Below, one piece after another: positions 35,667 through 52,529 of a stretch of 64,000 bases of DNA; position 1 is the first letter of the stretch, and every line of letters begins with the position of its first letter. Both the position numbers and the translations under genes were made by a program. Location of the stretch: positions 1 to 64,000 of the forward strand of contig JAEUHZ010000026.1 in NCBI GenBank assembly GCA_016795205.1, read 5' to 3'. The notes under the pieces were generated by a model. It saw only the letters and a program-made list of their open reading frames with translations. It was not told the DNA's origin and searched no databases. Origin of the DNA: Planctomycetota bacterium. GTDB taxonomy: Bacteria > Planctomycetota > UBA1135 > GCA-002686595.

Positions 35667-36122
35667 GTGTTTCACGGTGAGTCGACCCACGTCCTGGACG
35701 CGAAGTTCCGCTTGGTCGTGCCCAAGCGGATCGCGGACCACCTGGGGCGCGGCGCGGAGGGGGCCAAGACCTGCTTCCTGACCCGCGGCCAGGACCGCTG
35801 CCTCTACCTGTTCTCGAAGGAAGGCTTCGAGCGCGCGATGTCCTCGCTGCGCCTCGCGTCGTTCGGCGGCGACGAGCAGCGCGCGGCCTCGCGCGTCTTC
35901 GCCGCGAACACCTTCGAGCTCGAACTCGACGGCTCGGGCCGCGTGCTCGTGCCCGAGAAGCTGCGCAGCCAACTCGGCGAGGAGCGCGAAGTCGTCGTCA
36001 TCGGCAACTTCGGCCACGCCGAGATCTGGGGCAAGCGCGCCTGGGAGGAGTACCAGGCGCGCAACGAAGGGCTCTTGGACCGGATCGATCGGATCCTGGG
36101 CGACCAAGGGCGAGCAACCTGA
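35667..36122 (+). CDS. mraZ: Transcriptional regulator MraZ
   Basis: 151 residues from GTG at 35667, giving the usual length; a GGGGGG ribosome site lies 7 bases upstream. A longer in-frame ATG at 35592 would add 25 unrelated residues and run through the operator repeats. Two SpoVT/AbrB-like halves are seen: HVLDAKFRLVVPKRIADHLG and LELDGSGRVLVPEKLRSQLG, each with the D-x-K/S-G-R-x-x-(I/V)-P motif. MraZ forms a ring and controls the dcw operon it heads. The next gene, rsmH, starts 31 bases on. Confidence 0.92.
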   Translation: MFHGESTHVLDAKFRLVVPKRIADHLGRGAEGAKTCFLTRGQDRCLYLFSKEGFERAMSSLRLASFGGDEQRAASRVFAANTFELELDGSGRVLVPEKLRSQLGEEREVVVIGNFGHAEIWGKRAWEEYQARNEGLLDRIDRILGDQGRAT

Positions 36123-36153
36123 CCGGCGTCGGGCCTGCGGAGGGAGGGGGGAA

Positions 36154-37170
36154 GTGTTCGAGGCGGAAATGGAAGAGCACGCTGTGCACGGAGCGCCCGG
36201 GGGGGAGTCTCCGCGTCACGTGTCGGTGCTCGCCGGACCCGTGGTCGAACTCCTCCGCGGCCTGACGCCCGGTCTCCTCTCGGGCTGGATCGTCGACGCG
36301 ACGGTCGGCCTCGGCGGGCACGCGGAACGCGTGCTCGACGCGTTGCCACAGGCGCGCGTCCTGGGCTGCGACCGGGATCCGCGCGCGCTCGAGCTGGCCC
36401 GCGAGCGGCTGGCGCGCTTCGGCCCGCGCGCGCGTCTCGTGGCAGCGCGGCACAGCGAGCTCGCGCGCGTCGTGCCGGCGTCGATCGAGCTGGCCCCGGC
36501 CGCGTTCCTGTTCGACCTGGGCGTGTCGTCCATGCAGCTCGACGAGCCCGAGCGCGGCTTCAGCTTCCAGGCCGATGGCCCGCTCGACATGCGCATGGAC
36601 CCGGGGCTCGACCGCACGGCGGCCGACATCGTCAACTCCTGGGACGAGCGCGACCTCGCGGACCTGTTCTACTTCGAGGGCGGCGAGACCCGCTCGCGCG
36701 CGGCCGCGCGCGCGATCGTGGCCGCGCGCCGCCGCGCGCCGTTCCTCCGCACGGGCGCGCTGGCCGACTGCGTGGCCGCCGCGCTCGGCGGGCGCTCGTC
36801 GAAGATCCACCCCGCGACGCTCGTGTTCCAGGCGCTGCGGCGCGCCGTGAACCAGGAAGGGGAGGAGCTCGCTTCGGCGCTGGCGGCCGCCGAGCGACTG
36901 CTCGCGCCCGGCGGGCGGCTGCTCGTGATCTCGTTCCACTCGGGCGAGGACGCCGTGGTGAAGCGCCACCTGGCCGCGCTGGCGCGCACGGGACGCTTCA
37001 CGCTGCTCACGAAGAGCCCGGTCGAAGCCGACCTCGCCGAGCGACGCGCCAACCCGCGCGCGCGGTCGGCCAAGTTGCGCGCCGTCGAGCGCGCGCACCA
37101 GCCGGATTCGGGCGGGACCCGCCCCGACCTGGTCCCCGACGCCCCGCTCGGGCCGGAGGGCGCTCCGTGA
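36154..37170 (+). CDS. rsmH: 16S rRNA m4C1402 methyltransferase RsmH (MraW)
   Basis: 338 residues; N4-methylates C1402 of 16S rRNA using SAM. Motifs: HVSVLAGPVVELL, the SAM site VDATVGLGGHAERVL, LGCDRDPRAL, FLFDLGVSSMQLDEPERGFS, DGPLDMRMDP and HPATLVFQALRRAVNQE. The C-terminus KLRAVERAHQ also matches the family. GTG at 36154 directly follows a purine-rich ribosome site (GGAGGGGGGAAG); an ATG 15 bases on is possible. Ends in a GTGA overlap with the ftsL-like gene, the usual order. Confidence 0.96.
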   Translation: MFEAEMEEHAVHGAPGGESPRHVSVLAGPVVELLRGLTPGLLSGWIVDATVGLGGHAERVLDALPQARVLGCDRDPRALELARERLARFGPRARLVAARHSELARVVPASIELAPAAFLFDLGVSSMQLDEPERGFSFQADGPLDMRMDPGLDRTAADIVNSWDERDLADLFYFEGGETRSRAAARAIVAARRRAPFLRTGALADCVAAALGGRSSKIHPATLVFQALRRAVNQEGEELASALAAAERLLAPGGRLLVISFHSGEDAVVKRHLAALARTGRFTLLTKSPVEADLAERRANPRARSAKLRAVERAHQPDSGGTRPDLVPDAPLGPEGAP

Positions 37171-37421
37171 CGCGCGCGCTGCTCTTGGGCGGGCTGCTCG
37201 TGGGCACGCTCGTGCTGGGGCTCCTCACGGCCATCCTGCAGTCGCACAACCGCGGGGAGGGCGCGCGGCTGGACGCCCTCCGCGAGGAGTGCCTGCTCCT
37301 CGAGGCCGTGCAGGGCGCGCAGCGCTCCGCGATCGTCGAACTCGACCACGGTCCGCTGCCCGCACCCGCGAGCGGCGTGGACTCCAAGAGCGCCGTCCAA
37401 CGCGCACGAGGTGCCCAGTGA
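37167..37421 (+). CDS. FtsL-like small membrane protein
   Basis: 84 residues. One N-terminal helix (LLLGGLLVGTLVLGLLTAIL), then a short heptad-like stretch (RLDALREECLLLEAVQGAQR). FtsL is poorly conserved in sequence, but this position between rsmH and ftsI, the size and the topology are those of FtsL, which forms a complex with FtsB and FtsQ. Coupled on both sides by GTGA overlaps. Assignment rests on synteny and shape, not on sequence identity. Confidence 0.6.
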   Translation: MTRALLLGGLLVGTLVLGLLTAILQSHNRGEGARLDALREECLLLEAVQGAQRSAIVELDHGPLPAPASGVDSKSAVQRARGAQ

Positions 37422-39838
37422 ACGCGACCCGCGCCGAACTGCGCCCCGGCCTCGTGTTCCTGGGCATCGGTGCCGTGCTGGCGCTGGTCGCCGCGCGCAC
37501 GGCGATCATCGCGCTCGATGCGGAGGGCGAGCAGCCCGCGAACCTGCGCCGTCTGCCGGTGATCCCCGCCGCCTTCGAGATCTGCGACGCGGCCGGCGTG
37601 CCCATGGCCGGCTCGGCCGAGTACATCGAGCTCGTCACCTCGCCCAACGCGATGTGGCAGGCCCACACGCCCGATGCGATGGCGCGCTTCGTCGCCGACG
37701 CGTTGGGCGAGCCCGAGGCGGCGCCGGCGTTGCTCGAGCGCATGCTGCCCGACGGCGCTCGAAAGGGCTGGATCACGTGCAGCCGCGAGCCGCTCGTGCT
37801 CGATCCCCAGGCCGCGGCGCGCGTCACGGCCTGGATCGCCGGGGCGGTGTTCGATCCCGATCGCCCGCCCGCGCCCGTGGCCGGCTTCGCGGTCGTGCCG
37901 GGCGCACTGCCGGGCGAGTACCGCGTCGCCTGGCACCCCGAGACCGCGCTGTCCGAGCGGGCGCGCGCGGTCCACGGCTACGACAAGCCGCGCGAGTGGA
38001 CGCGCCGGCTCGGCGACGGGCTGTGCGCCGCGGTGCGCGGCGAGCCCCTGCCGAGCGGCCCGGCCGCGGACGAGGAGCGCTCGAAGGCGCGCGAGGAGAT
38101 CTGGCGCGCGCTGCTGCCGTCCCAGTTCCGCGTCGTGCGCAAGGACGTGCCCCCGAGCCGCGCGCCGGCGCTGGCGGCCGTGCTGGAGCGCGAGCGCGTC
38201 CAGCCGCTCCAGATGGAGATGCGCCGCAACGCGCGCCGCGTCTACCCGGTGCAGGGCGGCCAGCGCGGCGCCGAGACGCCCGTGGCGGTGCTCGGGCGCT
38301 GGAGCACGCTCGAGGCGGACGACGCGCGCAAGGCGGCCGCGGCGCGCCTGCGCCTGTCCACCGACGACGCGGTCTGGACGCCCGCGGACCGGGCCCAGTT
38401 CGCCGAGCTGTCCGCCGCGCTGGTCTATCAACCGAGCCCGACGAGCGGCCTCGAGCTCTTGTCCTGGAACCTGCTCGCGCGCGAGGAGTACGCCTGGGTC
38501 GGCCGCCGCGGCGAGGAGTACACGTTCCTCCTCAACCAGGCCCCCCGGCGTCCGCTGCACCGCTACTTCCAGGAGCTCGTGCCGGGCGATCCGACGCCGC
38601 GGGTGATCACGACCATCGAGCTCGGGTTGCAGCGGCGCGTGCGCGCGCTGCTCGAGGAGACCGTCGCCAAGCACCGCCCGGCCCTGGCGCAGGCCATCGT
38701 CGTCGACGTGGCGAGCGGGGACGTGCTGGCAGTCGACGCCCTCGACGTGTACGGGATGGGCGGCTTCGCCCCGACCATGCACACCTTCACGCCCGGCTCG
38801 ACGTTCAAGGTGCCGATCATGGCCTGCGCCCTGGACACCGGCGACGTGCGGCCCGCGGATCGCTTCGACTCGGAAGATGGCAACTTCCGCATCGAGGGTC
38901 GCGCGATCCGCGAGGCCGAAGGCGGCGACAACAAGGGAGTCGTCACGGCGGCCCAGGGTCTCGCCTACTCGATCAACGCCGTGCTCGTGCAGATCGGCAC
39001 GCGCGTCGACGACGATGCCCTGCACGGGCGGCTCGCGGGCCTGGGCTATGGCCGCTACCCCGACGCGGGACTCGGCAGCGAGCGGCGCGGCCTGTTCAGC
39101 TCGCCGCCCTGGAAGAAGAAGTACACGCACGCCTCGGTGTCGTTCGGACACGAGATCTCCGTGACGCTGTGGCAGCACGCGCAGGCCTTGGCGACGATCC
39201 TGCGCGGCGGACACTTCCGGCCGCTGCGGCTGGTGCGCGCCGTCGAGTGGAACGGGCGCCGGGAGGAGGCCCCGCTCGTCGAGGATCATCCGCTCCAGGC
39301 GCGGGACCCGTTGGGGCCCGCGGCCTGCGCCGAGGTGCGCGAGATGATGCGCCTGGGCGCGGAGATCGGCACGGGCAAGGACGTGACCAAGCCGATCCGC
39401 GCCAGCGTGGACGTGGGCACCAAGACCGGCACGGCGCAGAAGGTGCCGGGCGAGCTGTGCCTGCACCTCGAGCTGCAGCACAACCTCGAGCACGGCTGTC
39501 GGGGCGCGAAGGCCTGCCGGCAGGAGCTGGCGCGGAGTGGTCGGCCACCGCACCGCAACTGCTACACGAGCTCGATCTGCGCCTTCGGCCGGCTGCGCGA
39601 GGGCGGGCGCGAGGTCATGGTCCTGGTGGTCGTCGACGAACCACGCGGCGGGCAGCGCTTCGGCTCCCAGGTCGCGGGACCAGCCGGGATCGGCATCCTG
39701 CAGGAGGCCTTGGGCCTGACCGTGCTGGGCCAGGCGCCGATCGAGATCGGGGCCGATGGCTTCCGCGCGATCGAGGCCAGCCACGATCCCGGCGCCGCCG
39801 AGTCCCCCTGGAAGGAGGACGCCGATGGACCTCGCTGA
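37418..39838 (+). CDS. ftsI: Division-type penicillin-binding protein 2/3 transpeptidase (FtsI)
   Basis: 806 residues, longer than usual FtsI (about 580-720). N-terminal anchor (RPGLVFLGIGAVLALVAART), a long non-catalytic domain (about 60-395) and the transpeptidase domain. Active site: Ser461 and Lys464 in PGSTFKVP, S518-I-N520 in AYSINAV, K669-T-G in TKTGTAQK. The N-terminal domain lacks the clear RGxIxDRNG motif of typical class B PBPs (here LPVIPAAFEICDAAGVPMAG), so it is divergent. Crosslinks septal peptidoglycan. Ends with a 14-base overlap with murE. Confidence 0.88.
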   Translation: MNATRAELRPGLVFLGIGAVLALVAARTAIIALDAEGEQPANLRRLPVIPAAFEICDAAGVPMAGSAEYIELVTSPNAMWQAHTPDAMARFVADALGEPEAAPALLERMLPDGARKGWITCSREPLVLDPQAAARVTAWIAGAVFDPDRPPAPVAGFAVVPGALPGEYRVAWHPETALSERARAVHGYDKPREWTRRLGDGLCAAVRGEPLPSGPAADEERSKAREEIWRALLPSQFRVVRKDVPPSRAPALAAVLERERVQPLQMEMRRNARRVYPVQGGQRGAETPVAVLGRWSTLEADDARKAAAARLRLSTDDAVWTPADRAQFAELSAALVYQPSPTSGLELLSWNLLAREEYAWVGRRGEEYTFLLNQAPRRPLHRYFQELVPGDPTPRVITTIELGLQRRVRALLEETVAKHRPALAQAIVVDVASGDVLAVDALDVYGMGGFAPTMHTFTPGSTFKVPIMACALDTGDVRPADRFDSEDGNFRIEGRAIREAEGGDNKGVVTAAQGLAYSINAVLVQIGTRVDDDALHGRLAGLGYGRYPDAGLGSERRGLFSSPPWKKKYTHASVSFGHEISVTLWQHAQALATILRGGHFRPLRLVRAVEWNGRREEAPLVEDHPLQARDPLGPAACAEVREMMRLGAEIGTGKDVTKPIRASVDVGTKTGTAQKVPGELCLHLELQHNLEHGCRGAKACRQELARSGRPPHRNCYTSSICAFGRLREGGREVMVLVVVDEPRGGQRFGSQVAGPAGIGILQEALGLTVLGQAPIEIGADGFRAIEASHDPGAAESPWKEDADGPR

Positions 39839-41330
39839 GCTCGTGCGCGAGCTGGGCGGCGAGCTGCACCGCGCGCCACGCGCCGGCGCGCGCGTCGACG
39901 GCGTCCGGCTGGACAGCCGGCAGGTTCGCCCCGGTGACCTGTTCTGCGCGGCGGGCGGTGCGCGCGCCGACGGCGCGCAGTTCGCCGTCGACGCGGTGCG
40001 GCGCGGCGCAGCGGCGGTGCTCGCCGCGCGCGAGCTCGAGCTCCCGGACGGCGCCGGGCTGTGGATCCACCCCGCGCCGCGGCGCGTGGCGGGCGAGGCC
40101 GCGGCGCGCGTCCTGGGCCAGCCGGCGCGCGGGCTGTTCGTGGCCGGCGTGACCGGCACGAACGGCAAGACCACGACTGCGCACCTGATCGGTCATCTGC
40201 TGTGGGCCGCGGGCCGGCGTCCAGCCGTGCTGGGGACGGCCGGCAACCGCCTGGCGGACGGCGTGCTGCAGCCGGCGACGCACACGACTCCGGACGCACC
40301 CGCGCTCCACGAGCTCATCGCGCGCCACCGCGCGCTGGGCGGTGATTCGATCGCGATGGAGGCCAGCTCGCACGCGCTGGATCAGGAGCGCACGGCGGGC
40401 CTGGAGTTCGACGTGGCGATCTTCACGAACCTGACCCGCGATCACCTCGACTACCACGGGGACTTCGAGTCCTACGCGCGCGCCAAGCAGCGGCTCTTCG
40501 AGAGCCTGCGCCCGGGCGCCACGGCCGTGGTGAACGCCGACGACCCGGCCTCGGAGCGCATGTCCGCCGCAGCGCGCGCGCGGAACGCCGAGGTCGTGAC
40601 CTACAGCGCACGCGATCGCGGCGACTTGTGCGCCTCGGACCTCCGCTCGAGCCTGCGTGGTACGCACCTGATCCTGCATGGGATGGGGATCTCGCGGACC
40701 AGGCTGTGGCTCCCGCTGGCCGGGCGGTACAACGTCGAGAACGCCCTGGCCGCCGCCGCGTGTGCGCTCGTGTCGGGGGCGAGTCCCTCCAGGATCCTGG
40801 AGGGACTCGCCAACGCGCACGGAGCCCCGGGCCGGCTCGAGTCCGTGCCCACGCGCGGCCGCGGGTTCACCGTGCTCGTCGACTACGCGCACAGCGAGGA
40901 CGCGCTCCAGAACGTGTGCCGCACGCTGCGCCAGGCGCTCGCGGCGCCGGCCGACGAGGACGCGGCCCCGGCCACCAATGGCCGGCTGATCGTGGTCTTC
41001 GGTGCCGGCGGCGACCGCGATCAGGGCAAGCGCGCGCCGATGGGGCGCGTCGTGAACGAGCTCGCCGACCTGGCGATCGTGACCAGCGACAACCCGCGCA
41101 GCGAGGATCCCGCGCGGATCCTCGGCGACATCGTCTCCGGCATGCAGCCGCCGCGCGCGCGCCGCATCGTCGAAGAGGACCGGCGTCGCGCCATCGAGCT
41201 GGCCTGCGGCGAGGCGCGCCCGGGCGACGTGGTCCTGATCGCCGGCAAGGGCCACGAGACGACCCAGACGATCGGTGTCGAGGCGCACTCCTTCGACGAC
41301 CGCGCCGTGGCGCGGGAGGTGCTCGGTTGA
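39825..41330 (+). CDS. murE: UDP-MurNAc-tripeptide synthetase MurE
   Basis: 501 residues; adds the third amino acid of the peptidoglycan stem. Start at ATG 39825 with an AAGGAGG site. Features: VDGVRLDSRQVRPGDLFCAA, ATP motif GVTGTNGKTTTAHL (P-loop about residue 111), EASSHALDQERTAGLEFDVA, LTRDHLDYHGDFESYARAKQ, GAPGRLESV and the substrate motif DNPRSEDP (about 422). DNPR indicates meso-diaminopimelate. The coding sequence contains a perfect 34-base palindrome (40778-40811). A TTGA overlap couples it to murF. Confidence 0.95.
   Translation: MDLAELVRELGGELHRAPRAGARVDGVRLDSRQVRPGDLFCAAGGARADGAQFAVDAVRRGAAAVLAARELELPDGAGLWIHPAPRRVAGEAAARVLGQPARGLFVAGVTGTNGKTTTAHLIGHLLWAAGRRPAVLGTAGNRLADGVLQPATHTTPDAPALHELIARHRALGGDSIAMEASSHALDQERTAGLEFDVAIFTNLTRDHLDYHGDFESYARAKQRLFESLRPGATAVVNADDPASERMSAAARARNAEVVTYSARDRGDLCASDLRSSLRGTHLILHGMGISRTRLWLPLAGRYNVENALAAAACALVSGASPSRILEGLANAHGAPGRLESVPTRGRGFTVLVDYAHSEDALQNVCRTLRQALAAPADEDAAPATNGRLIVVFGAGGDRDQGKRAPMGRVVNELADLAIVTSDNPRSEDPARILGDIVSGMQPPRARRIVEEDRRRAIELACGEARPGDVVLIAGKGHETTQTIGVEAHSFDDRAVAREVLG
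40778..40811. repeat. Perfect 34-bp palindrome inside murE
   Basis: Both strands read the same for 34 bases with no loop (half-site of 17 bases, centre GGATCC). It covers murE codons for about residues 318-329 (GASPSRILEGLA). The codons used for Ser (AGT), Arg (AGG) and Gly (GGA) differ from the GC-ending codons preferred around it, so base sequence, not protein, seems to be constrained. Confidence 0.9.
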
Positions 41331-42736
41331 ACCCGTTCCGCATCCGCGAAGTCCTGAACGCGACCCGCGCGACCCTGGCCTCCGGCGACCCCGGCCGGCT
41401 GTGCTCGGGTGTCTCCACCGACACGCGCACGCTGGCCCCCGGCGAGCTGTTCGTGGCCTTGCGGGGACCGAGCCACGACGGCAACCGCTTCGCGCGCGAA
41501 GCCGCCGGCCAGGGGGCCGCGGCGCTCGTCCTGTGCGCGCCGGACGGCGCAGTCCCGCCCGAAGCCGCCGCGGTCGGGCGCGAGATCCCCGTGCTCCTGC
41601 ATCCCGATCCGCGCGCGCTGCTGGCGGAGCTCGCCACGTGGCATCGCGCGCGCCTTCCGGCGCGCGTGATCGGCGTGACGGGCTCCTGCGGGAAGACGAC
41701 CACCAAGAACGTGCTGCTCGAGCTGCTCGGCTCCCGCCTGCGCGTGGCCGGTTCGCCCAACTCGTTCAACAACGACATCGGCGTGCCCTTGACGCTGTTC
41801 CGCGCCGACGACGACACCGAGGCGCTGGTCGTGGAGCTCGGCACGAACGGGCCGGGCGAGATCGCCGCGCTGGCGCGCATCGCGCGACCGGACGCGGGCA
41901 TCGTCACCACGGTCGGCGCGGCGCACCTCGAGGGCTTGGGCTCGCTGGCGGGCGTCGCGGCCGAGAAGGGCGCGCTCGTCGAGTCGATCCCCGAGGACGG
42001 CTTCTGTGTCCTCAACGCGGACAATCCCTGGACGCGCTCGATGCAGAAGCGCGCGCGCTGCCGCGTGCTGACGTTCAGCCTGGAGGGCGAGGGCGACCTC
42101 GACGCCCGCGACGTGTGGTTCCACCCGGGCGGCACGACCTTCCGGCTGGAGTCCACGGAGATCACGTCGCCGCTCCTCGGCCTGCACAACGTGCAGAACT
42201 TGCTGGCCGCGCTGGCGGCTTGTCGCGGACTGGGCCTGGAGCTCGCGGAGGTCTTGCCGGCCGTGTCCCGGCTGCGCGCGGGACGCGGGCGTCTCGACCG
42301 CATCCAGTGCGGCCGCCTCACGCTGATCGACGACAGCTACAACGCGAACCCGGAGTCGGCGCGCGCCAGCGTGCGCACCCTGGCTGGCCTGCACGGCCAC
42401 CGGCGGCGCGTGCTCGTCCTGGGCGACATGCTGGAGCTCGGCGCGCACGCGGCCGAGCTGCACCACGAGATCGGCGCCGAAGCGGCCCGCAGCGGGATCG
42501 ACGTGCTGGTGCTCGTCGGCGAGCTCTCGCGCGCGGCCGGGGCCGGTGCCTTGCAGTCCGGCATGCCCGCCGCGCGCGTCCTGCACGTCGCCGACACGGA
42601 CGAAGCCCTGGCCTGCGTCCCGCGCATCCTCGACGCGGGCGACGTCGTCCTGGTCAAGGGCAGCCGCCGCACGGGGCTCGATCGCCTGGTCCAGTTCCTG
42701 CTCGAGCGCGAGCGTGCGCAGGAGCACGCAGCCTGA
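41327..42736 (+). CDS. murF: UDP-MurNAc-tripeptide:D-Ala-D-Ala ligase MurF
   Basis: 469 residues; adds D-Ala-D-Ala to the UDP-MurNAc-tripeptide. TTG at 41327 overlaps the murE stop (TTGA). Motifs: CSGVSTDTRTLAPGELFVAL, P-loop GVTGSCGKTTTKNVL, SPNSFNNDIGVPLTL, EDGFCVLNADNPW and IDDSYNANPESARASVRTL, then GDMLELG, all typical of MurF. Joined to mraY by TGATG. Confidence 0.95.
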   Translation: MNPFRIREVLNATRATLASGDPGRLCSGVSTDTRTLAPGELFVALRGPSHDGNRFAREAAGQGAAALVLCAPDGAVPPEAAAVGREIPVLLHPDPRALLAELATWHRARLPARVIGVTGSCGKTTTKNVLLELLGSRLRVAGSPNSFNNDIGVPLTLFRADDDTEALVVELGTNGPGEIAALARIARPDAGIVTTVGAAHLEGLGSLAGVAAEKGALVESIPEDGFCVLNADNPWTRSMQKRARCRVLTFSLEGEGDLDARDVWFHPGGTTFRLESTEITSPLLGLHNVQNLLAALAACRGLGLELAEVLPAVSRLRAGRGRLDRIQCGRLTLIDDSYNANPESARASVRTLAGLHGHRRRVLVLGDMLELGAHAAELHHEIGAEAARSGIDVLVLVGELSRAAGAGALQSGMPAARVLHVADTDEALACVPRILDAGDVVLVKGSRRTGLDRLVQFLLERERAQEHAA

Positions 42737-43881
42737 TGTTTCCCGGCATCTTCGACGACCTGCTCGGGATCGGCCTGTTCGGCTACATCTCGTTCCGGAT
42801 GGCCATGGCGGCGCTGACGGCCTTCGCGCTGGCCATCGTGCTGGGTCGCCCGACGATCGCCTGGCTCTCCGCGCGCAAGGTGCGCGAGGGCGTCAAGGGC
42901 GACTCCGACGAGCTCGATCGCGCCACTGCGTCGAGCGGCAAGCGCGACACGCCCACGATGGGCGGCAGCTTCCTGGTGGCCGCGCTGCTCGGCTCGGTCG
43001 TGCTGTGGGGCCGGCTGGACAACATTCACGTGGTGCTGGGGATCCTGCTGACCCTGGGCCTGGCCGCCACGGGCTTCGTCGACGACTTCAAGAAGCTGAC
43101 GGTGCTGAAGTCCAAGGGCCTCACGCCGCGCGCGAAGATGGTCGGGCTCACGGTCGCGACCGTGTTCGCCGTGGGCGGTTTTGCCTACTACGCCTGGAGC
43201 ACCGGCCGCTGGACGCTCTTGGACCTGTTTCCGCCGATCCTGAAGGACGCGCGCGTTCCGCTGGCTGCGCTGGGGCTCGCGGGCGTGTTCCTGTACGTGG
43301 TCTTCCAGTGGTTCGTCGTGGTCGGCACCAGCAACGCCTGCAACATCACCGACGGGCTCGACGGCCTGGCCGCGGGTTGCATGATCATCGCCGGGCTCAC
43401 GCTGGCGGTCATGTGCTACGTGACCGGACGCCCCGACTGGGCGCTGTACTTGGGCCTGCCGCACGTCTCGGCCGCCTCCGAGATGGCGGTGGTCGGCGGC
43501 GCCCTGTGCGGCGCCTGCATGGGGTTCCTCTGGTACAACGCCCATCCGGCGCGCGTGTTCATGGGCGACTCGGGATCGCTGCCGCTGGGCGGGCTCCTGG
43601 CGTGGATGGCCCTGGTCGCGAAGCAGGAGCTGGTCCTGCCGCTGCTCGGCTTCGTGTTCTTCGCGGAGCTCATGTCGAGCTTCCTCCAGACCCAGTGGTA
43701 CCGCCGCTCGGGCGGCCGGCGGCTGTTCACGATGGCGCCGATCCACCACGGGCTGCAGCTCAAGGGCGGCATCTTCCGGCCCGGTCCGCGCCCGTGGCCC
43801 GAGACGCAGATCGTGACGCGCGCCTGGATCGTGGCCGCGCTGTGTGCCATGGCCAGCCTGTCCCTGCTCAAGGTGCGGTGA
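42736..43881 (+). CDS. mraY: Phospho-MurNAc-pentapeptide transferase MraY
   Basis: 381-residue membrane enzyme making lipid I. Features: PTMGGSFLV, catalytic FVDDFKKL, NACNITDGLDGLAAGC, MGDSGSLPLGG, and the C-terminal PIHHGLQLKGG (His-rich loop; E. coli has HHH here, this has HHG). About ten helices. The start is the ATG of TGATG with murF. The space after it normally holds murD; here ftsW follows one base later. Confidence 0.95.
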   Translation: MFPGIFDDLLGIGLFGYISFRMAMAALTAFALAIVLGRPTIAWLSARKVREGVKGDSDELDRATASSGKRDTPTMGGSFLVAALLGSVVLWGRLDNIHVVLGILLTLGLAATGFVDDFKKLTVLKSKGLTPRAKMVGLTVATVFAVGGFAYYAWSTGRWTLLDLFPPILKDARVPLAALGLAGVFLYVVFQWFVVVGTSNACNITDGLDGLAAGCMIIAGLTLAVMCYVTGRPDWALYLGLPHVSAASEMAVVGGALCGACMGFLWYNAHPARVFMGDSGSLPLGGLLAWMALVAKQELVLPLLGFVFFAELMSSFLQTQWYRRSGGRRLFTMAPIHHGLQLKGGIFRPGPRPWPETQIVTRAWIVAALCAMASLSLLKVR

Positions 43882-43882
43882 C

Positions 43883-45106
43883 ATGGCACGCTTCAAGGGA
43901 GCGGCGGCGCTGCCGCCGGGGATGATCGTCCCGCGCGAGAAGCAGCTCGGTCTGTTCGATCGGCTGGAGGAACTGCGCGCGCGCTCGCTGGAAGTCGATC
44001 CCGCCGGCCCGGCGATCCGCCTGTTCTGGATCGTGCTGACGCTCTCGGGTGCCGGATTGCTCGTGCAGGCCAGCCACGCCGCGACGACGCAGGCGCCCGA
44101 CGCCTTCTGGAGCGGGCTGTGGAGCCAGGTGTTCTTCCGCGCCGCGGCGCTGGGAGCGCTGCTCATGGGGTTCCGCTTCGGCCCGGCCGGCGTGCGGCGC
44201 TTCCTCCCGTTCCTCGTGGTGCTGTCCCTGGTGGCGCTGGCCTTGGTCTACGTGCCCGGCATCCCCTCGGCGGTGAACGGGTCGCGGCGCTGGCTGCCGC
44301 TGCCGGGTGGCCTCACGTTCCAGCCCTCGGAGCTGGCGCGCATCGTCATGATCCTGTGGGTCGCCGACCGCTGCATCCGGCTCGGACCGGACGTCACGGA
44401 TTGGAAGCGTGGCGTGTGGCCCATGCTGCGCCTGGGGCTCGTGGCCTTCACCCTGATCGTGTGCGAGACGGACCTGGGCGGCGCGCTGCTGTTCCTCCTG
44501 TGCTTCCTGATCACGATGTGGTCCGGCGGCGCGCGCCTGAGCCACGTCTCGGGGCCGTTCGTGTTCGCCGTGGGCGCCGCGCTCCTGGCGCTCTTGGCCG
44601 GCGTCTCCTACGTCCAGCACCGCCTCGAGATGTGGCTGGGCCGCGCTCAGAACGACCAGGTGCTGCGCTCGACCGAGGCCATCGCCAGCGGCGACTGGTT
44701 CGGAGTGGGCCTCGGCCAAGGCCTGTTCCGCAACGCCGGCGTACCGTATCTCGAGTCGGACTACGTGTTCGCGCTCGTCGGCGAGGAGCTCGGGTACCTG
44801 GGCCAGCTCGGGCTGATCGCCCTGTTCCTCTCCTTCCTGTGGTACGGGCTGCGGCTGGTCCTCTCGATCCACGACCGCTTCGCCGCGCTGTGCTGCTTCG
44901 GCCTCGTGCTCTCCGTCGCGCTCCAGGCCATGGTGCACCTGCAGGTCGTCTCCGGCCTGGCCCCGCCCAAGGGCATGACCCTGCCCTTCGTCTCCCACGG
45001 CGGCACGTCTCTCGTCGTGTCGTCGCTCGCGGTCGGACTCGCCCTCGGCGCAGCCCGTTCGCGCAAGTCACCCCACCCTTCCGTCCCCGACAGCCAGGCG
45101 GCCTGA
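43883..45106 (+). CDS. ftsW: SEDS-family peptidoglycan polymerase FtsW
   Basis: 407 residues with about ten helices. ATG at 43883 is one base past the mraY stop. Hallmarks: NGSRRWLPLPGGLTFQPSEL with ARIV after it, the catalytic-site region CETDLGGALLFLLCF, GVGLGQGLFRNAGVPYLESD and FALVGEELGYLGQLG, and PFVSHGGTSLV. A cytoplasmic N-terminal tail of about 50 residues precedes helix 1. Position in the dcw cluster argues for FtsW over RodA. Polymerises glycan with FtsI. Confidence 0.92.
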   Translation: MARFKGAAALPPGMIVPREKQLGLFDRLEELRARSLEVDPAGPAIRLFWIVLTLSGAGLLVQASHAATTQAPDAFWSGLWSQVFFRAAALGALLMGFRFGPAGVRRFLPFLVVLSLVALALVYVPGIPSAVNGSRRWLPLPGGLTFQPSELARIVMILWVADRCIRLGPDVTDWKRGVWPMLRLGLVAFTLIVCETDLGGALLFLLCFLITMWSGGARLSHVSGPFVFAVGAALLALLAGVSYVQHRLEMWLGRAQNDQVLRSTEAIASGDWFGVGLGQGLFRNAGVPYLESDYVFALVGEELGYLGQLGLIALFLSFLWYGLRLVLSIHDRFAALCCFGLVLSVALQAMVHLQVVSGLAPPKGMTLPFVSHGGTSLVVSSLAVGLALGAARSRKSPHPSVPDSQAA

Positions 45107-45133
45107 GCCGCCGAGAAGCCCCACCCACCGGCC

Positions 45134-45994
45134 ATGCAACAGATCGAACGCTACGGCGTCATCGCACTCGTCTTCCTGCTCGTCACGATCGTCGCCATCT
45201 CCTTCTGGGGCGACAGCAAGTCGCCCGGCTTCTGGTCGCGGATCACCGGCAAGAAGCCGACGGAGGTCGCCAAGCTCGAGACGCCCACGCCGCCCCCGGG
45301 CCCCGTGATCGACGGGCCGCCGCTGACCCGCGAGCTTCCGTCGCCGACCCCGCAGCCGGAGCCGGTGCCTGCTCCCGATCCGATCGTCGGCCAGGTCGGG
45401 GCGAACCCGGCCCCCACGCCGGGGCGCGAGCTCGAGCCCAGGCCGCTCGAGACCTGGCAAGCGCCGCGGCCGGAACCGGCTCCCGCGCCGCGTGAGAAGC
45501 TCCCGCCCACGCGTCCCGCGCTCCCGGCGGCCAACGAGTACGTCGTCCAGCGCGGCGACTCCCTGGCGAAGATCGCGCGCAACGTGCTGGGCGCGGAGTC
45601 GCGCTGGACCGAGATCGCGCAGTTGAACCCGCGCGTCGATCCGCGCGCGCTGGTCGTGGGCGAGAAGCTGGCGCTGCCCTCCGCTGCCGCCGCGCCGAAG
45701 CCGTCGACGCCCGAGCTGGCGAAGAAGCCCGTCGCGAAGGCCGCGCCCGAGCTCAAGAGCGCCCCGGCGTCGCGCTCGGTCACCGTGCAGAAGGGGGACA
45801 CGCTGCGCTCGATCGCGCGCCGCGAGTTGGGCGACGAGCGGCGCTGGAACGAGATCGTCGGCCTGAACCCGGGCCTCGATCCCCAGAAGCTCGCCATCGG
45901 CACGCGCCTGCGACTGCCGGCCAAGAGCGGCGAGCTGCTGGCCGCCGCGGCCCCGGCGTCCTCCGTCCCCGCCGACCGGCCGCGCGTGCGATGA
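45134..45994 (+). CDS. Membrane-anchored protein with two LysM domains
   Basis: 286 residues. One N-terminal helix (YGVIALVFLLVTIVAISFWG), a cytoplasm-to-outside Pro-rich linker (about 50-135), then two LysM domains: YVVQRGDSLAKIARNVLGAE (about 137-185) and VTVQKGDTLRSIARRELGDE (about 217-265), each ending in a LNPR/LNPG and G-x-L-LP pattern. LysM domains bind the GlcNAc chains of peptidoglycan. It lies 27 bases after ftsW in the slot where murD or ftsQ is usually found. It likely ties the division site to wall glycan. Overlaps the next gene by ATGA. Confidence 0.85.
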   Translation: MQQIERYGVIALVFLLVTIVAISFWGDSKSPGFWSRITGKKPTEVAKLETPTPPPGPVIDGPPLTRELPSPTPQPEPVPAPDPIVGQVGANPAPTPGRELEPRPLETWQAPRPEPAPAPREKLPPTRPALPAANEYVVQRGDSLAKIARNVLGAESRWTEIAQLNPRVDPRALVVGEKLALPSAAAAPKPSTPELAKKPVAKAAPELKSAPASRSVTVQKGDTLRSIARRELGDERRWNEIVGLNPGLDPQKLAIGTRLRLPAKSGELLAAAAPASSVPADRPRVR

Positions 45995-46218
45995 AGCCCG
46001 TCCCCCGACTGCTCCTGCTCCTCGGCTGCGTGCTGGTCGCGGCGCTGGTGTGCCCCGGGGCCGCGCGCGTCGCGGCCGAGGACCTGTTCGGACCCTACGC
46101 CGAGGACCACGACGCGGCCGGCGAGCTGCTGGCGGACGCCGGCCTCCTCGACGTCCAGCACCCCACGCACCATGCCGACGACGGCGCGGGTCCGGTCGAC
46201 GGGCACGACGAGCCCTGA
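45991..46218 (+). CDS. Small secreted Asp/His-rich protein
   Basis: 75 residues. The N-terminal signal (RLLLLLGCVLVAALVCPGAA) is followed by a short acidic tail with clustered His and Asp (DVQHPTHHADDGAGPVDGHD). It may bind metal. Start by ATGA overlap with the LysM gene; its end overlaps murG by 47 bases. No family recognised. It sits inside the dcw run, so expression should follow wall synthesis. Confidence 0.6.
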   Translation: MKPVPRLLLLLGCVLVAALVCPGAARVAAEDLFGPYAEDHDAAGELLADAGLLDVQHPTHHADDGAGPVDGHDEP

Positions 46219-47356
46219 CGCGCCCGGTCACCGCGCGCGGCCCGGCCTGCGCGTCGCCTTCGCGGGCGGCGGCACCGGCGGCCATGTCGTGCCCGGGCTG
46301 CACCTGCTGGCGGACGCGCGCGCGCGCGGCGCGGAGCCGGCCGATCTCGTGTGGTTCACGAGCGGCCGGCCCGTCGAGGAGCGCGTGTTCGCGGGCGCTC
46401 TGGACCTGCTGGCGGAGATCCCGCACGAGCGCCTGGCGTTGCCGCTCGAGCGGCGCGGCGGTGGTGCCCCCTCGCGCGCCGGGCTCGTGCTGCGCGCGCC
46501 CGGCGCCGTGATCCACGCCCGTCGCGCGCTCGTGGCGCACCGCACCGAGGTGCTGCTCGGGCTGGGTGGCTTCGCGTCCCTGCCGGCGGTCGTGGCGGCC
46601 AGGGGCTTGGGGATCCCGGTGGCGTTGCTCGAGGTCAACGCCGTGCGCGGCGCGGCGACGCGCTGGCTCGCGCGCGCCGCTCGGCGCGTGCTGTTCGCCT
46701 TCGAGCCGGACGCGGCGCGCCCCGGGCGCGACCTGTGCACCGGACCGCCGCTCTCGCCCGCGCTGGCGCGCGGCGCGCCCGAGGCTGCGGCCGTGCGCGC
46801 CGCGCGCCTGTCGTTCGGCCTCGATCCCGAGCGCCCGGTGCTCCTGGTCCTGGGCGGCAGCCAGGGAGCCAGCGCCCTGAACGCCTTCGTGCGCACGAAC
46901 CTCCCGCGGCTCATCGGCGGCGGCCTGCAGGTCTTGCATCAGACCGGGCCGGGGAAGCTGGCCGAGGCGGCGCCGCCAGCTTCTGGCTACCACGCCAGCG
47001 AGTACTTCGACCCGGCGCAGCGCGCGCTGGAAGCCGCCACGGTCGCGCTGTGCCGCGCCGGTGCGTCGACCTTGTGCGAGGTCGCGGCGCTGCGCTTGCC
47101 AGCCTTCGTCGCGCCTTACCCGCGCGCGGCCGACGACCACCAAGCGCGCAACGCGCGCGCACTGGGCCGCGGCGTGCGCGTGGTCCGCGACGACGAGCTC
47201 GGCGCGTGGACCGCCGACGCGCTGGCGCGCCTGGCCTCGGCGTCCGGAGCGGCCGAGCGTCGCGCGCTGTCGGCGGAACTCGAGCGGGCGTTGCCTCTGG
47301 ACGGCGCGCAGCGGATCTGGCACGAACTGGGCGCGATCGCGCGCGTGTCGTGCTGA
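46172..47356 (+). CDS. murG: Lipid II-forming GlcNAc transferase MurG
   Basis: 394 residues; adds GlcNAc to lipid I. ATG at 46172 is the only ATG, GTG or TTG that precedes the first strand, so the 47-base overlap with the previous gene seems real. GT-B features: RVAFAGGGTGGHVVPGLHLL (donor loop), LGLGGFASLPAVVAARGLGI, VLLVLGGSQGASALNAFV, YFDPAQRALEAATVALCRAG and a glycine-poor but recognisable C-terminal acceptor-side sequence DDHQARNARAL. A conserved part of the dcw set. Confidence 0.93.
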   Translation: MPTTARVRSTGTTSPDAPGHRARPGLRVAFAGGGTGGHVVPGLHLLADARARGAEPADLVWFTSGRPVEERVFAGALDLLAEIPHERLALPLERRGGGAPSRAGLVLRAPGAVIHARRALVAHRTEVLLGLGGFASLPAVVAARGLGIPVALLEVNAVRGAATRWLARAARRVLFAFEPDAARPGRDLCTGPPLSPALARGAPEAAAVRAARLSFGLDPERPVLLVLGGSQGASALNAFVRTNLPRLIGGGLQVLHQTGPGKLAEAAPPASGYHASEYFDPAQRALEAATVALCRAGASTLCEVAALRLPAFVAPYPRAADDHQARNARALGRGVRVVRDDELGAWTADALARLASASGAAERRALSAELERALPLDGAQRIWHELGAIARVSC

Positions 47357-47358
47357 CT

Positions 47359-47377
47359 TGTCCACGGCGCGTGGACA
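47359..47377. promoter_or_regulatory. Dyad between murG and murC
   Basis: TGTCCACG (47359-47366), three bases, CGTGGACA (47370-47377), just after the murG stop. Perfect 8-base arms. It could be an operator, attenuator or mRNA hairpin for murC; no further support. Confidence 0.3.
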
Positions 47378-47412
47378 GTGCGTGGAGAAGCGCGCCGATC
47401 GAGGGGGGGGCA

Positions 47413-48906
47413 ATGAACGAGACGAACATCCCTGAGCTGCGCGCTGCGTCCTCGGGCGCCAACGCGACCCGCGCGCGCCTGCCGTCGCGCGTGCACTTCG
47501 TCGGCGCGGGGGGCGCCGGACTGTCGGGTGCGGCGCTGCTGCTGCTCGAGCGGGGCCACCAGCTCTCCGGCCACGATCGCGCTGTGTCGGGCTTCGTCGA
47601 CGCGCTGCGCGCGCGCGGCATGCCCGTCGCCGTGGGCCAGAGCGATGCGCGGCTCCTGGGCCACGACGTGCAACTCGTCGTGCGGTCCGCGGCGATCGGG
47701 CTCGACGATCCGCAGGTCGCGGAGGCCTTGCGACGCGGCCTCCCCGTCCTGAAGTACGCCGAGCTCCTGGGCCTCCTGGGCCCCGAGCGACGCACGCTGG
47801 CGGTGGCCGGGACCCACGGCAAGACCACGAGCTCGTGGCTCGTCTTCCACGCCCTGCGCGGCATCGCCCACGCGGCCGGCGCCGATGCGCCGGGAGCGCT
47901 CGTGGGCGGCTCGTGCCGGGTGATCGGATCGAACGCCGTGCCGGGCGGCGCGCGCGGCTGGTTCGCGTGCGAGGCCTGCGAGTACGACCGCTCGTTCCTG
48001 CAGCTCGCTCCCGAGGGCGCGATCGTGACGAACGTCGAGGCCGACCACCTCGACTACTACGGGTCGCTCGCAGCCATCGAGGAGGCCTTCGCGCGCTTCG
48101 TGGATCGCGTGCACCCCGAGGGTCTGCTGGTCGTGGGGCGCGAGGTCCCCGCGCGTGTCGAGCACGCGGCGCGCTGCGCCGTGTGGCGGCTCGGGCGCGA
48201 GCTGCACGTCGACCTCCTGGGGGAGTCCCAGGGCCGTTTCCGCTTCCGTCTGCGCGGACCAGGCTGGGCGACGCCACCCGTCGCGCTGGCGATCCCGGGC
48301 GCGTTCAACGTCGACAACGCGGCGCTCGCGCTGGCGCTCGCCGTGGGGCTCGCGGGCCGGACCAGCGGGCTCTCCCCGGCCGAGTGCGCCGACGGCGCCG
48401 CGCGCGGCGTGCAGCGCTACGTCGGCGCGGCGCGGCGCTTCGAGCCCTGGGGCACGTTCGGCGGCATCGAGCTCGTCCACGACTACGCGCACCACCCGAC
48501 CGAGGTGCGGGTCACGCTGGAGGCCGCGCGACGCGCGTTCGCGGGCAAGCCGCTGCACGTCCTGTTCCAGCCGCACCAGCACAGCCGCACGGCGCGCTTC
48601 CTGGACGAGTTCGTCGACGCGCTGCGCGGCGCGGACCGCGTGCTGGTCGCCGACGTGTACGGCGCGCGCCAGCACATCGACCGCGAGGCGGCCGGGGCGC
48701 CGGAACTCGTGGCGCGCCTGCGGCGCGCGGGCCTGGACGCCCTGGAGGCCGGGAGCCCCTCGGCCGCCGTGAAGCTCCTCGCGGCGGGCTTGCCCAGCCC
48801 GTGCGCGGCGTTGATCCTGGGCGCTGGCGACATCGACCTCGCCCACGATGAACTCATCGAAGCTGTGGCCCTGCGCGGCTCTGCCGCACGCCTCGCTCGC
48901 GCCTAG
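47413..48906 (+). CDS. murC: UDP-MurNAc:L-alanine ligase MurC
   Basis: 497 residues; adds the first amino acid of the stem peptide. ATG at 47413 follows a run of G. Motifs: VHFVGAGGAGLSGAALLLLE, VAGTHGKTTSSWL (P-loop about 133), CEACEYDRSFL, TNVEADHLDYYGS, the VHDYAHHPTEVRVT motif and FQPHQHSRTA. The His of HHPTE and the E-Y-D-R-S motif are typical of MurC. It overlaps murB by 59 bases. Confidence 0.95.
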   Translation: MNETNIPELRAASSGANATRARLPSRVHFVGAGGAGLSGAALLLLERGHQLSGHDRAVSGFVDALRARGMPVAVGQSDARLLGHDVQLVVRSAAIGLDDPQVAEALRRGLPVLKYAELLGLLGPERRTLAVAGTHGKTTSSWLVFHALRGIAHAAGADAPGALVGGSCRVIGSNAVPGGARGWFACEACEYDRSFLQLAPEGAIVTNVEADHLDYYGSLAAIEEAFARFVDRVHPEGLLVVGREVPARVEHAARCAVWRLGRELHVDLLGESQGRFRFRLRGPGWATPPVALAIPGAFNVDNAALALALAVGLAGRTSGLSPAECADGAARGVQRYVGAARRFEPWGTFGGIELVHDYAHHPTEVRVTLEAARRAFAGKPLHVLFQPHQHSRTARFLDEFVDALRGADRVLVADVYGARQHIDREAAGAPELVARLRRAGLDALEAGSPSAAVKLLAAGLPSPCAALILGAGDIDLAHDELIEAVALRGSAARLARA

Positions 48907-49828
48907 GACCACGCTGCACGTCGGCGGGCGCGCGGAGTGGCTGCTCGAACCGGCCACGCCGGAGGAGCTGCGCCGCGCGATCGTCGCCGCGCGCGAGGAT
49001 GGCCACGAGCCGCGCATCCTGGGCGGCGGCGCGAACCTGATCGTCGACGACGGCGTGCTGCCGGGCGTGGTGATCACGACCGACCGCATGAAGCGGCTCT
49101 TCCGGCCGGCCAACGCGGCCGCTTGGCTCGCCGACGATCCGGACGGACGCGTCGCGCAGCCGTCGCGCGAGGAGGGCCTGCGCTTCGTGTCGTGGGCCGG
49201 CACCACGCACCAGAAGCTGCTCTCGGCCTCCGTGGAGCTGGGCTGGAGCGGCCTCGAGGGCCTGGCGGGCGTGCCCGGCCACGTGGGCGGCGGCGTGGCG
49301 ATGAACGCCGGCGGCAAGTGGGGCGGGATGTGGGACGCGGTCGAGCGCGTGCTGGTCGTCGACGAGCGCGGAGAGCTGGTCGAGCTCGAACGCGCGCAGT
49401 GCCAGCCCCGCTACCGCAACGGCGGGCTGGGCCGCAACGTCGTGGCGTCCGTGCTGCTGCGCTTCACGCTCGACACGCTGCCCGCCGTGAAGGAGCGCGC
49501 GCGTGAGTTCCTGCTGGCGAAGAACAGGGTCCAGCCCGTCACGCTGTGGTCGGCGGGCTGCATCTTCAAGAACCCCGACCCGAGCGTGTCCGGCGGGCGC
49601 ACGGCGGGTCAGCTCGTCGACGCCTGCGGCCTGAAGGGCGCGCGCCTGGGCGACGCCGAGATCAGCCCGCTGCACGGGAACTTCTTCGTGAACCGCGGCA
49701 ACGCGCGGGCGCGCGACCTGCTGGCGCTGATCGAGCGCGCGCGCGCCGAGGTCGCGGAGCGGACGGGCATCGTGCTGGAGCACGAGGTCAAGGTCTGGCG
49801 CGCTGAGCTGGACCCAGCCCGACCCTGA
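48848..49828 (+). CDS. murB: UDP-N-acetylenolpyruvoylglucosamine reductase MurB
   Basis: 326 residues; FAD enzyme reducing enolpyruvyl-UDP-GlcNAc to UDP-MurNAc. FAD-binding: RTTLHVGGRAEWLLEP, ILGGGANLIVDDG, LEGLAGVPGHVGGGVAMNAG. The catalytic residue region SAGCIFKNPDP has Cys where Ser is common, as known in part of the type II MurB group. C-terminal GNFFVNRGNARARDLLALIE fits the family. ATG at 48848 lies within murC (59-base overlap), so translation is coupled. Last gene of the dcw run. Confidence 0.94.
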   Translation: MNSSKLWPCAALPHASLAPRTTLHVGGRAEWLLEPATPEELRRAIVAAREDGHEPRILGGGANLIVDDGVLPGVVITTDRMKRLFRPANAAAWLADDPDGRVAQPSREEGLRFVSWAGTTHQKLLSASVELGWSGLEGLAGVPGHVGGGVAMNAGGKWGGMWDAVERVLVVDERGELVELERAQCQPRYRNGGLGRNVVASVLLRFTLDTLPAVKERAREFLLAKNRVQPVTLWSAGCIFKNPDPSVSGGRTAGQLVDACGLKGARLGDAEISPLHGNFFVNRGNARARDLLALIERARAEVAERTGIVLEHEVKVWRAELDPARP

Positions 49829-50057: not shown

Positions 50058-51281
50058 TTGTCCAGCCGCCGTCTCGCCCTGCCGCTCGCCCTCCTCGCGC
50101 TCGCCGCCGTCGCGCCGGCGCAGATCCTGGCCATCCAGCACAAGCCGCGCGCCAGCGCGGGTGCGAGCAGCGCCCGCGCGCCGTCGGAAGACGCGGTGCG
50201 GGCCTTCGCGCTGTCCTTCGAGGACGCGCTGCGGCGCGGAGCGCGCGAGGAAGCCTTCGCGCTCTTCGATCACGAGGCGCTGCTCGAGCGGGCGTCCAAG
50301 GGCGTGCCGGCGACCGTCGCGGTGCGCCGGCACTTCCTCCAGGGCGCGCACGCCGCCTGGAACGGCGACGCCGGGCCCGTGGGCGCGGCCCTGGGCGCCG
50401 CCGCGCGCGGCGGGCACGTGCGCTGGCTCGCGAGCGGCGAGCGAGATGGCGAACGCAGCGTGACGTTCCGCATCGTGCGCTCGGACGCAGCCGCGCCGGA
50501 GTACCTGGAGCTCTTGCTCCTGCGCCGGGGCGAGCGCGGCGCCACGTGCGCCGACGTGATCTCGAGCACCGACGGCGTCTCCCACGCGCGCGTTCTGCGC
50601 CGCTGGCTGCTGGCGCTGGTGGCGGACGCGGGGCGCAAGCTCTCCGAGCGCATCGCGGGCGAGGATCGCGCCTTCGCGCTGGCCGGACGCACCTTCGAGG
50701 CCATCGACCTCTCCTTCGAAGCGGGGCGCTGCGCCGACGCGCTCGCCGCTTGGAGCACGCTCGACCCCGCCCTGGCGCGCGATCCGTCCGTGGTGCTGAC
50801 GCGCTTGCGCGCGGCCCTGGCGGCGGGCAGCGCGACCTTCGACGCGGCGCTCGCCGAGGCCCGCGCCACGGGCGGCGTGCAGACGCCGGTGGAACTCCTG
50901 GCCGTCGACGTGGCTACCGCCACGAACCGCCCGGAGCACGCCCTGCTGGCCCTGGATCGGCTGGCCTCTGCCGGGCCCGCCGACCCGTTCCTCGACGCAC
51001 TGCGCGGCAATGTGCTGCGCGAGCTGGGCCGCGGCGACGCCGCGCGCGCGGCCTGCCGCCGCGCGCTCGAGGCCGATCCGGAGCTGGAAGAGGGCTGGTG
51101 GACGCTGCTCGCGCTGGAGATCGAGTCGCGGCGCCACGAGGACGCGCTGTCCGTCATCCGCGCCATGGACGCGCGCTTCGAGATCGACTGGCGCGCCGTG
51201 GCGCAGTCGCCGGCCTACCGCGCCTTCCTGGACTCGAAGCCGGGCGCCCGCTGGCGGGCCACCGTGGCGACGAAGCGCTGA
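50058..51281 (+). CDS. Secreted protein with C-terminal TPR-like repeats
   Basis: 407 residues. TTG at 50058 is supported by GAGGAG 7 bases upstream and opens a signal peptide cut near VAPAQ (residue 22). Residues ~45-170 form a small alpha/beta domain (DAVRAFALSFEDALRRGARE with VTFRIVRSDAAAPEYLELLL later); residues ~200-390 form helical TPR-like repeats (LRGNVLRELGRGDAARAACR and WWTLLALEIESRRHEDALS). Function unknown; its own transcription unit between murB and xylA. Confidence 0.72.
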   Translation: MSSRRLALPLALLALAAVAPAQILAIQHKPRASAGASSARAPSEDAVRAFALSFEDALRRGAREEAFALFDHEALLERASKGVPATVAVRRHFLQGAHAAWNGDAGPVGAALGAAARGGHVRWLASGERDGERSVTFRIVRSDAAAPEYLELLLLRRGERGATCADVISSTDGVSHARVLRRWLLALVADAGRKLSERIAGEDRAFALAGRTFEAIDLSFEAGRCADALAAWSTLDPALARDPSVVLTRLRAALAAGSATFDAALAEARATGGVQTPVELLAVDVATATNRPEHALLALDRLASAGPADPFLDALRGNVLRELGRGDAARAACRRALEADPELEEGWWTLLALEIESRRHEDALSVIRAMDARFEIDWRAVAQSPAYRAFLDSKPGARWRATVATKR

Positions 51282-51323: not shown

Positions 51324-52529
51324 ATGACGCCGAGCCGAAGAACGACGGGCACGGACCCGTTCGACCCCGTCCCCGCCGACCGTTTCACCTTCGGCCTGTG
51401 GACCGTCGGGAACCCCGGGCGGGACCCCTTCGGAGCGCCGGTGCGTGCGCGGCTCTCGCCCGCCCGCATCGTCGAGAAGCTGGCCGAGTGCGGCGCCATG
51501 GGCGTGAACCTGCACGACGAGGATCTCGTGCCGTTCGGCTCGAGCGCGGCGCAGCGCGACGCGCTCGTGCGCGAGTTCAAGCGGGCGCTCGCCGACCACG
51601 GGATGGTCGTCCCGATGGCCACGACGAACCTGTTCTCGCACCCGGTGTTCAAGGACGGTGCGTTCAGTGCGAACGATCCCCAGGTGCGCGCCTTCGCGCT
51701 GCGCAAGACGCTCGACGCGATCGACCTGGGTGTCGAGCTGGGAGCCACCACGTACGTCTTCTGGGGCGGGCGCGAGGGCTCCGAGGCCGACGCCTGCCGC
51801 GACCCGCGCCTGGCACTGCAGCGCCTGCGCGACGCGCTCGACTTCCTGTGCGGCTACGTGCAGGACCAGGGCTACGACCTGCGCTTCGCGCTGGAGGCCA
51901 AGCCCAACGAGCCGCGCGGCGACATCTACCTGCCCACCACGGGACACATGCTGCACTTCATCTCCACGCTCCAGCACGCGGACATGGTGGGCGTGAACCC
52001 CGAGGTCGCGCACGAGACGATGGCCGGCCTCTCGTTCGCGCACGGCGTGGCGCAGGCCATGGAGGCCGGGAAGCTGTATCACATCGACCTGAACGCACAG
52101 CGCATCGGCCGCTACGACCAGGACCTGCGCTTCGGGTCCGAGGACGTGCGGCAGGCCTTCCTGCTCGTGCGGCTGCTCGAAGGCACGCTGGGGGGCGCGC
52201 GCTACGAAGGCCCGCGGCACTTCGACGCACACGCTTACCGCACGGAGGACGAGCAGGGCGTGTGGGAGTTCGCGCGCGGCTGCATGCGGACCTACAAGAT
52301 CCTGCACGCGCGCGCCGTGGCCTTCGACGCGGACCCCGAGGTGCGCGCGCTGACGGCCGAGCTCTCCGACCGTGAGCTCGATCCGCTGCTCGCCGGCTTC
52401 GCGCGCGAGAAGGTGGCGAAGCTGCGCGCCGCCCAGATCGACGTCGACGCCGTCGCGCAACGCGGACTCGGCTACGAGCGGCTCGACCAGCTCATGCTGG
52501 AGCACCTCCTGGGGGTGCGCGGAGCGTGA
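51324..52529 (+). CDS. xylA: Xylose isomerase
   Basis: 401 residues; converts xylose to xylulose (also glucose to fructose). The length and sequence fit the short, Streptomyces-like class I enzyme. Motifs: [29 protein letters not shown] (catalytic His), [35 protein letters not shown] (metal ligand Glu and KPNEPRGD), [20 protein letters not shown] and [20 protein letters not shown] with the second metal ligands. Overlaps xylB by 4 bases. Confidence 0.96.

Follow-up and report, generated by a model that had tools for sequence, protein, structure and literature searches.

The present locus bears on how walled bacteria manage division when FtsZ is absent; it belongs to a planctomycete that keeps its wall genes. 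The window, i.e., the whole 64,000-nucleotide stretch of DNA that was analysed, carries at 35667-49828 (+) a dcw cluster of 13 ORFs from mraZ to murB, in the order mraZ-rsmH-ftsL-like-ftsI-murE-murF-mraY-ftsW-LysM-small ORF-murG-murC-murB. The ORF ends within the cluster mostly overlap or abut. These ORFs and the gene that follows them are:

35667..36122, +, mraZ (TIGR00242, 87 bits, E 1e-24; cut-off 98)
36154..37170, +, rsmH (mraW) (TIGR00006, 242 bits)
37167..37421, +, ftsL-like small membrane protein of 84 aa (one N-terminal TM; position)
37418..39838, +, ftsI, class B PBP transpeptidase (PF00905, 108 bits; motifs STFK, SIN and KTG)
39825..41330, +, murE (NF001124, 500 bits, above cut-off)
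41327..42736, +, murF (TIGR01143, 391 bits, above cut-off)
42736..43881, +, mraY (TIGR00445, 280 bits, above cut-off)
43883..45106, +, ftsW, SEDS glycosyltransferase (TIGR02614, 254 bits, top model; cut-off 337)
45134..45994, +, membrane-anchored protein with two LysM domains (PF01476, two stretches)
45991..46218, +, small membrane protein of 75 aa (shares 4 bases with the end of the LysM gene)
46172..47356, +, murG, start uncertain (PF04101, 91 bits; PF03033, 60 bits)
47413..48906, +, murC (Mur ligase domains PF01225/PF08245/PF02875)
48848..49828, +, murB (PF02873, 103 bits; PF01565, 57 bits)
50058..51281, +, TPR protein, outside the cluster (weak TPR matches)

The gene order and coordinates of an earlier, sequence-only reading of this DNA hold, and are backed by the family models and by the loci of relatives. 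FtsW and MraZ match their own models best, yet score below the curated equivalog cut-offs; for FtsW, the RodA model scores 182 compared to 254 for the FtsW model. The nearest NCBIfam models of FtsI are MrdA and SpoVD, both far under cut-off. The FtsL-like ORF has no match in the family-model scan, and a short membrane protein is found at the equivalent position in the relatives' clusters that were checked. None of murD, ddl, ftsQ, ftsA and ftsZ lies inside the cluster. A single base separates mraY (end 43881) from ftsW (start 43883), so there is no murD between the two, and no ddl, ftsQ, ftsA or ftsZ follows murB in the window, both as the sequence-only reading had described. That reading also gave the flank after murB correctly as a TPR gene and then xylA, an arrangement that is specific to the genome of the window and to one near relative (L016): among the relatives' loci compared, only L016 has the TPR-xylA-xylB flank in common, and TPR-xylA is rejected as a cluster component. 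Beyond murB the genes are unrelated and differ between genomes, which places the end of the cluster at murB. Directly after the TPR gene, the window encodes a xylA-like sugar isomerase and a xylB-like sugar kinase (51324-53968).

Comparison of gene order with related genomes, a check that the sequence-only reading had proposed, finds the order kept in the loci of 14 named relatives as far as the stretches examined reach, and clusters with the same order also occur in other families of the taxonomic order. Among the 14 is the cultured Planctomycetes bacterium Poly30, which we take to be a member of the Saltatorellus clade. The complete chromosome of Poly30 (CP036434) shares the order mraZ-rsmH-ftsL-like-ftsI-murE-murF-mraY-ftsW-LysM-murG and has no FtsZ in its record; it differs in that, in the stretch examined, murG is followed not by murC and murB but by a gene that by eye is polysaccharide deacetylase-like. 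Two clusters from other families (L053 and L046) instead close with murC-ddl-ftsQ-like; in both, the space from mraY to ftsW is too small for a murD, and the families of L053 and L046 have no FtsZ match in the phylum search. Compared to these clusters, that of the window has no ddl and no ftsQ and includes the LysM gene. On the simplest reading, ddl and ftsQ would have left the cluster in the order to which the window belongs, and ftsZ and ftsA would have been lost earlier.

The absence of FtsZ extends beyond the cluster. The genome of the window (4.62 Mb, 84 contigs, draft; the window is on contig 4) has no PF00091 match, in a search that is positive in 13 of 14 control genomes, and TIGR00065, for which the threshold of a canonical ftsZ is 295 bits, finds none in this genome or in 101 relatives. 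PF00091 is likewise without a match in Poly30, in three other named relatives and in two genomes of the family that consist of one or two contigs. The proposal of a wall-making cell without FtsZ is supported by the genome itself, by the 101 relatives and by Poly30. An ftsZ-ftsA-ftsQ block elsewhere in the genome, which the sequence-only reading had named as evidence against itself, was looked for and not found. That an FtsZ is present and was missed, through the draft state of the genome or strong divergence of the protein, is highly improbable: the 84 contigs of the assembly and the divergent tubulin/FtsZ-like protein (24-42 bits) of a few phylum members speak for it, but it is already largely refuted by the relatives, Poly30 and the one- or two-contig family genomes, and by the performance of the search in the controls. 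The completeness of the genome is nominally 90%; as a one-contig member of the family reads 89%, this value seems to be about the most that the marker set can give, and the genome is probably near complete. The missing 10% of the draft is rejected as the reason for the absence on the basis of the relatives and the family genomes of one or two contigs.

Across the phylum, tubulin-domain (PF00091) matches are noted in only 5 of 392 genomes, all of them weak (24-42 bits). Tubulin/FtsZ-like proteins are encoded at L011 994-2316 (-) and at L012-L015, three of them in one genus with 99% completeness. The L011 protein, inspected over its whole length, is FtsZ-like but divergent and has a GGGTGGG motif; the FtsZl families (PMC2875224) are a point of comparison for this set. 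As canonical FtsZ, the L011-L015 matches are rejected, being weak and from families other than that of the window. For FtsA, TIGR01174 has matches in all 61 genomes searched, none over cut-off. In the genome of the window these are MreB (C59), PilM (C3:70497) and a third protein at C57, which also weakly matches the MreB model; the first two are rejected as FtsA by these identifications.

By contrast, MurD and Ddl are encoded on other contigs, so that of the genes suggested to be absent genome-wide, ftsZ and ftsA are indeed not found whereas murD and ddl are. MurD scores 320 bits, above cut-off, at G000:C39:102924-104255 and has the C-terminal signature SPACASYDQYRNFEERARDF. Its gene adjoins mcsA-clpC (L030 4425-9099, genome contig C39), and mcsA lies beside murD in 9 of 10 loci of relatives, which suggests that the relocation of murD out of the dcw cluster is old. 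Ddl is found at C81:33603-34577 (PF07478, 138 bits), 4 bits under the TIGR01205 cut-off. With both enzymes at other loci, the wall pathway keeps both, and its cytoplasmic part is represented by MurE, MurF, MurC, MurB, MraY and MurG together with MurD and Ddl. MurD and Ddl without FtsZ is the outcome of a whole-genome search that the sequence-only reading had named as its support.

The status of FtsQ is less clear-cut. PF03799 and PF08478 give no FtsQ match in the genome of the window or in its family, which counts against a retained FtsQ, though both models prove insensitive and miss or barely detect FtsQ-like proteins of planctomycetes. Five genomes from other families of the order (L057-L061) encode FtsQ-like proteins with a TM and an FtsQ-type POTRA motif, located away from the dcw cluster and beside a DEAD/DSHCT helicase. 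An FtsQ-like profile matches L053 14368-15312 (72 bits) and L046 4698-5579 (-) (57 bits), i.e., the proteins that follow murC-ddl in those two clusters. As these related proteins are without any Pfam match, absence of FtsQ by Pfam is weak evidence. An ftsQ is also present in Planctopirus (PMC12283558). It is somewhat more likely than not that a divergent FtsQ is encoded elsewhere in the genome, which would leave ftsA and ftsZ as the only divisome genes really lost.

Other division and cytoskeletal proteins are kept. FtsK is encoded at C50:10360-10959 (PF01580, 197 bits) and MreB on contig C59 (468 bits); downstream of mreB lies an FtsW/RodA-like ORF. Two paralogs of MamK-family actins score 418.8 and 423.6 bits against a cut-off of 400:

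L070 1439-2575 (genome contig C53), -, MamK-family actin (MamK model above cut-off)
L071 806-1924 (genome contig C3), -, MamK-family actin (MamK model above cut-off)

The top solved-structure matches of the C3 copy are the actin-like ATPases 5ljw/5ljv. The Saltatorellus clade has an actin homolog named saltatorellin (PMC11032199), and it is possible that the two MamK-family actins are its relatives.

The most probable explanation, which we hold with high confidence as a whole, is an inherited cluster in a cell that lost its tubulin ring. The dcw cluster would be inherited, the host being a planctomycete in the lineage of Poly30 (Saltatorellus clade). It is predicted to supply lipid II synthesis (MurE, MurF, MurC, MurB, MraY and MurG) and, in the membrane, the paired synthases FtsW and FtsI together with their FtsL-like partner. 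Like the other members of the phylum, the lineage would have lost FtsZ and FtsA, while MurD would have moved beside mcsA-clpC and Ddl to another locus. Division most likely proceeds without a tubulin ring. Septal wall synthesis by FtsW-FtsI would then be positioned by FtsK together with filaments of the actin family, namely MreB and perhaps the two MamK-family proteins, and this placement is probably roughly Chlamydia-like. The divisome of Chlamydia, which also lacks FtsZ, is organised by FtsK; FtsK is recruited first and MreB late (PMC11975371). Chlamydia trachomatis resembles the genome of the window in having FtsK, MreB and a class B PBP but no FtsZ (PMC11975371); the genome of the window has two MamK-family actins in addition.

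The absence of FtsZ is itself not new. It is established across Planctomycetes (PMC5147048, PMC10632474; also PMC12283558). The Saltatorellus clade has no FtsZ, has a GC content of ~70% and can switch between budding and fission (PMC11032199). Other Planctomycetes (Phycisphaerae, Planctomycetales) likewise keep the wall genes, ftsI, ftsW and ftsK and have lost ftsZ and ftsA (PMC12283558). As FtsZ-less division with a wall is already published for the phylum, including the Saltatorellus clade, the finding is not remarkable in itself. The fairly classical cluster that this lineage keeps instead narrows what was lost (FtsZ, FtsA) versus kept (FtsL-like, FtsI, FtsW, FtsK and MreB).

A further feature of the cluster is the pair of genes between ftsW and murG. 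All inspected clusters from the taxonomic order of the window encode a LysM protein after ftsW, and its orthologs share an N-terminal (R/K)YG + TM motif in most of these clusters. A membrane protein of 75-80 aa with a hydrophobic N terminus, its gene overlapping the LysM gene by 4 bases, is found in several family members. A limited literature search returned no account of such a pair at this position; the one paper that came up for LysM in planctomycete dcw clusters concerns a Verrucomicrobium MurB/MurC fusion enzyme. A role of the pair in septal or lateral wall synthesis would be a guess from gene position. The sequence-only reading suggested a possible variant divisome centred on FtsW/FtsI; in an extended form of this idea, the LysM and small membrane proteins would serve as lineage-specific septal parts. 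The constancy of the LysM gene and its N-terminal anchor, the overlapping small ORF and the retention of FtsL-like, FtsI and FtsW in one cluster are consistent with such a divisome, but this evidence is of gene position, and the LysM gene is absent at the post-ftsW position in most other clusters inspected from the phylum. Moreover, ftsI and ftsW are dispensable in Planctopirus limnophila and ftsK is essential (PMC10632474, PMC12283558), which argues against an organiser centred on FtsW/FtsI. Thus, the FtsW/FtsI-centred divisome is unsupported and is considered unlikely. A bolder version, in which the LysM and small proteins would be parts of an FtsW-FtsI machine that replace functions of the FtsA/FtsZ branch, with a division cytoskeleton formed by the two MamK-family actins, is very doubtful. 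The conserved LysM membrane protein and the two MamK-family actins are concrete candidates for division proteins, and Poly30 provides a cultured relative. A LysM gene at the dcw cluster is also noted in two families outside the order (L043 and L044).
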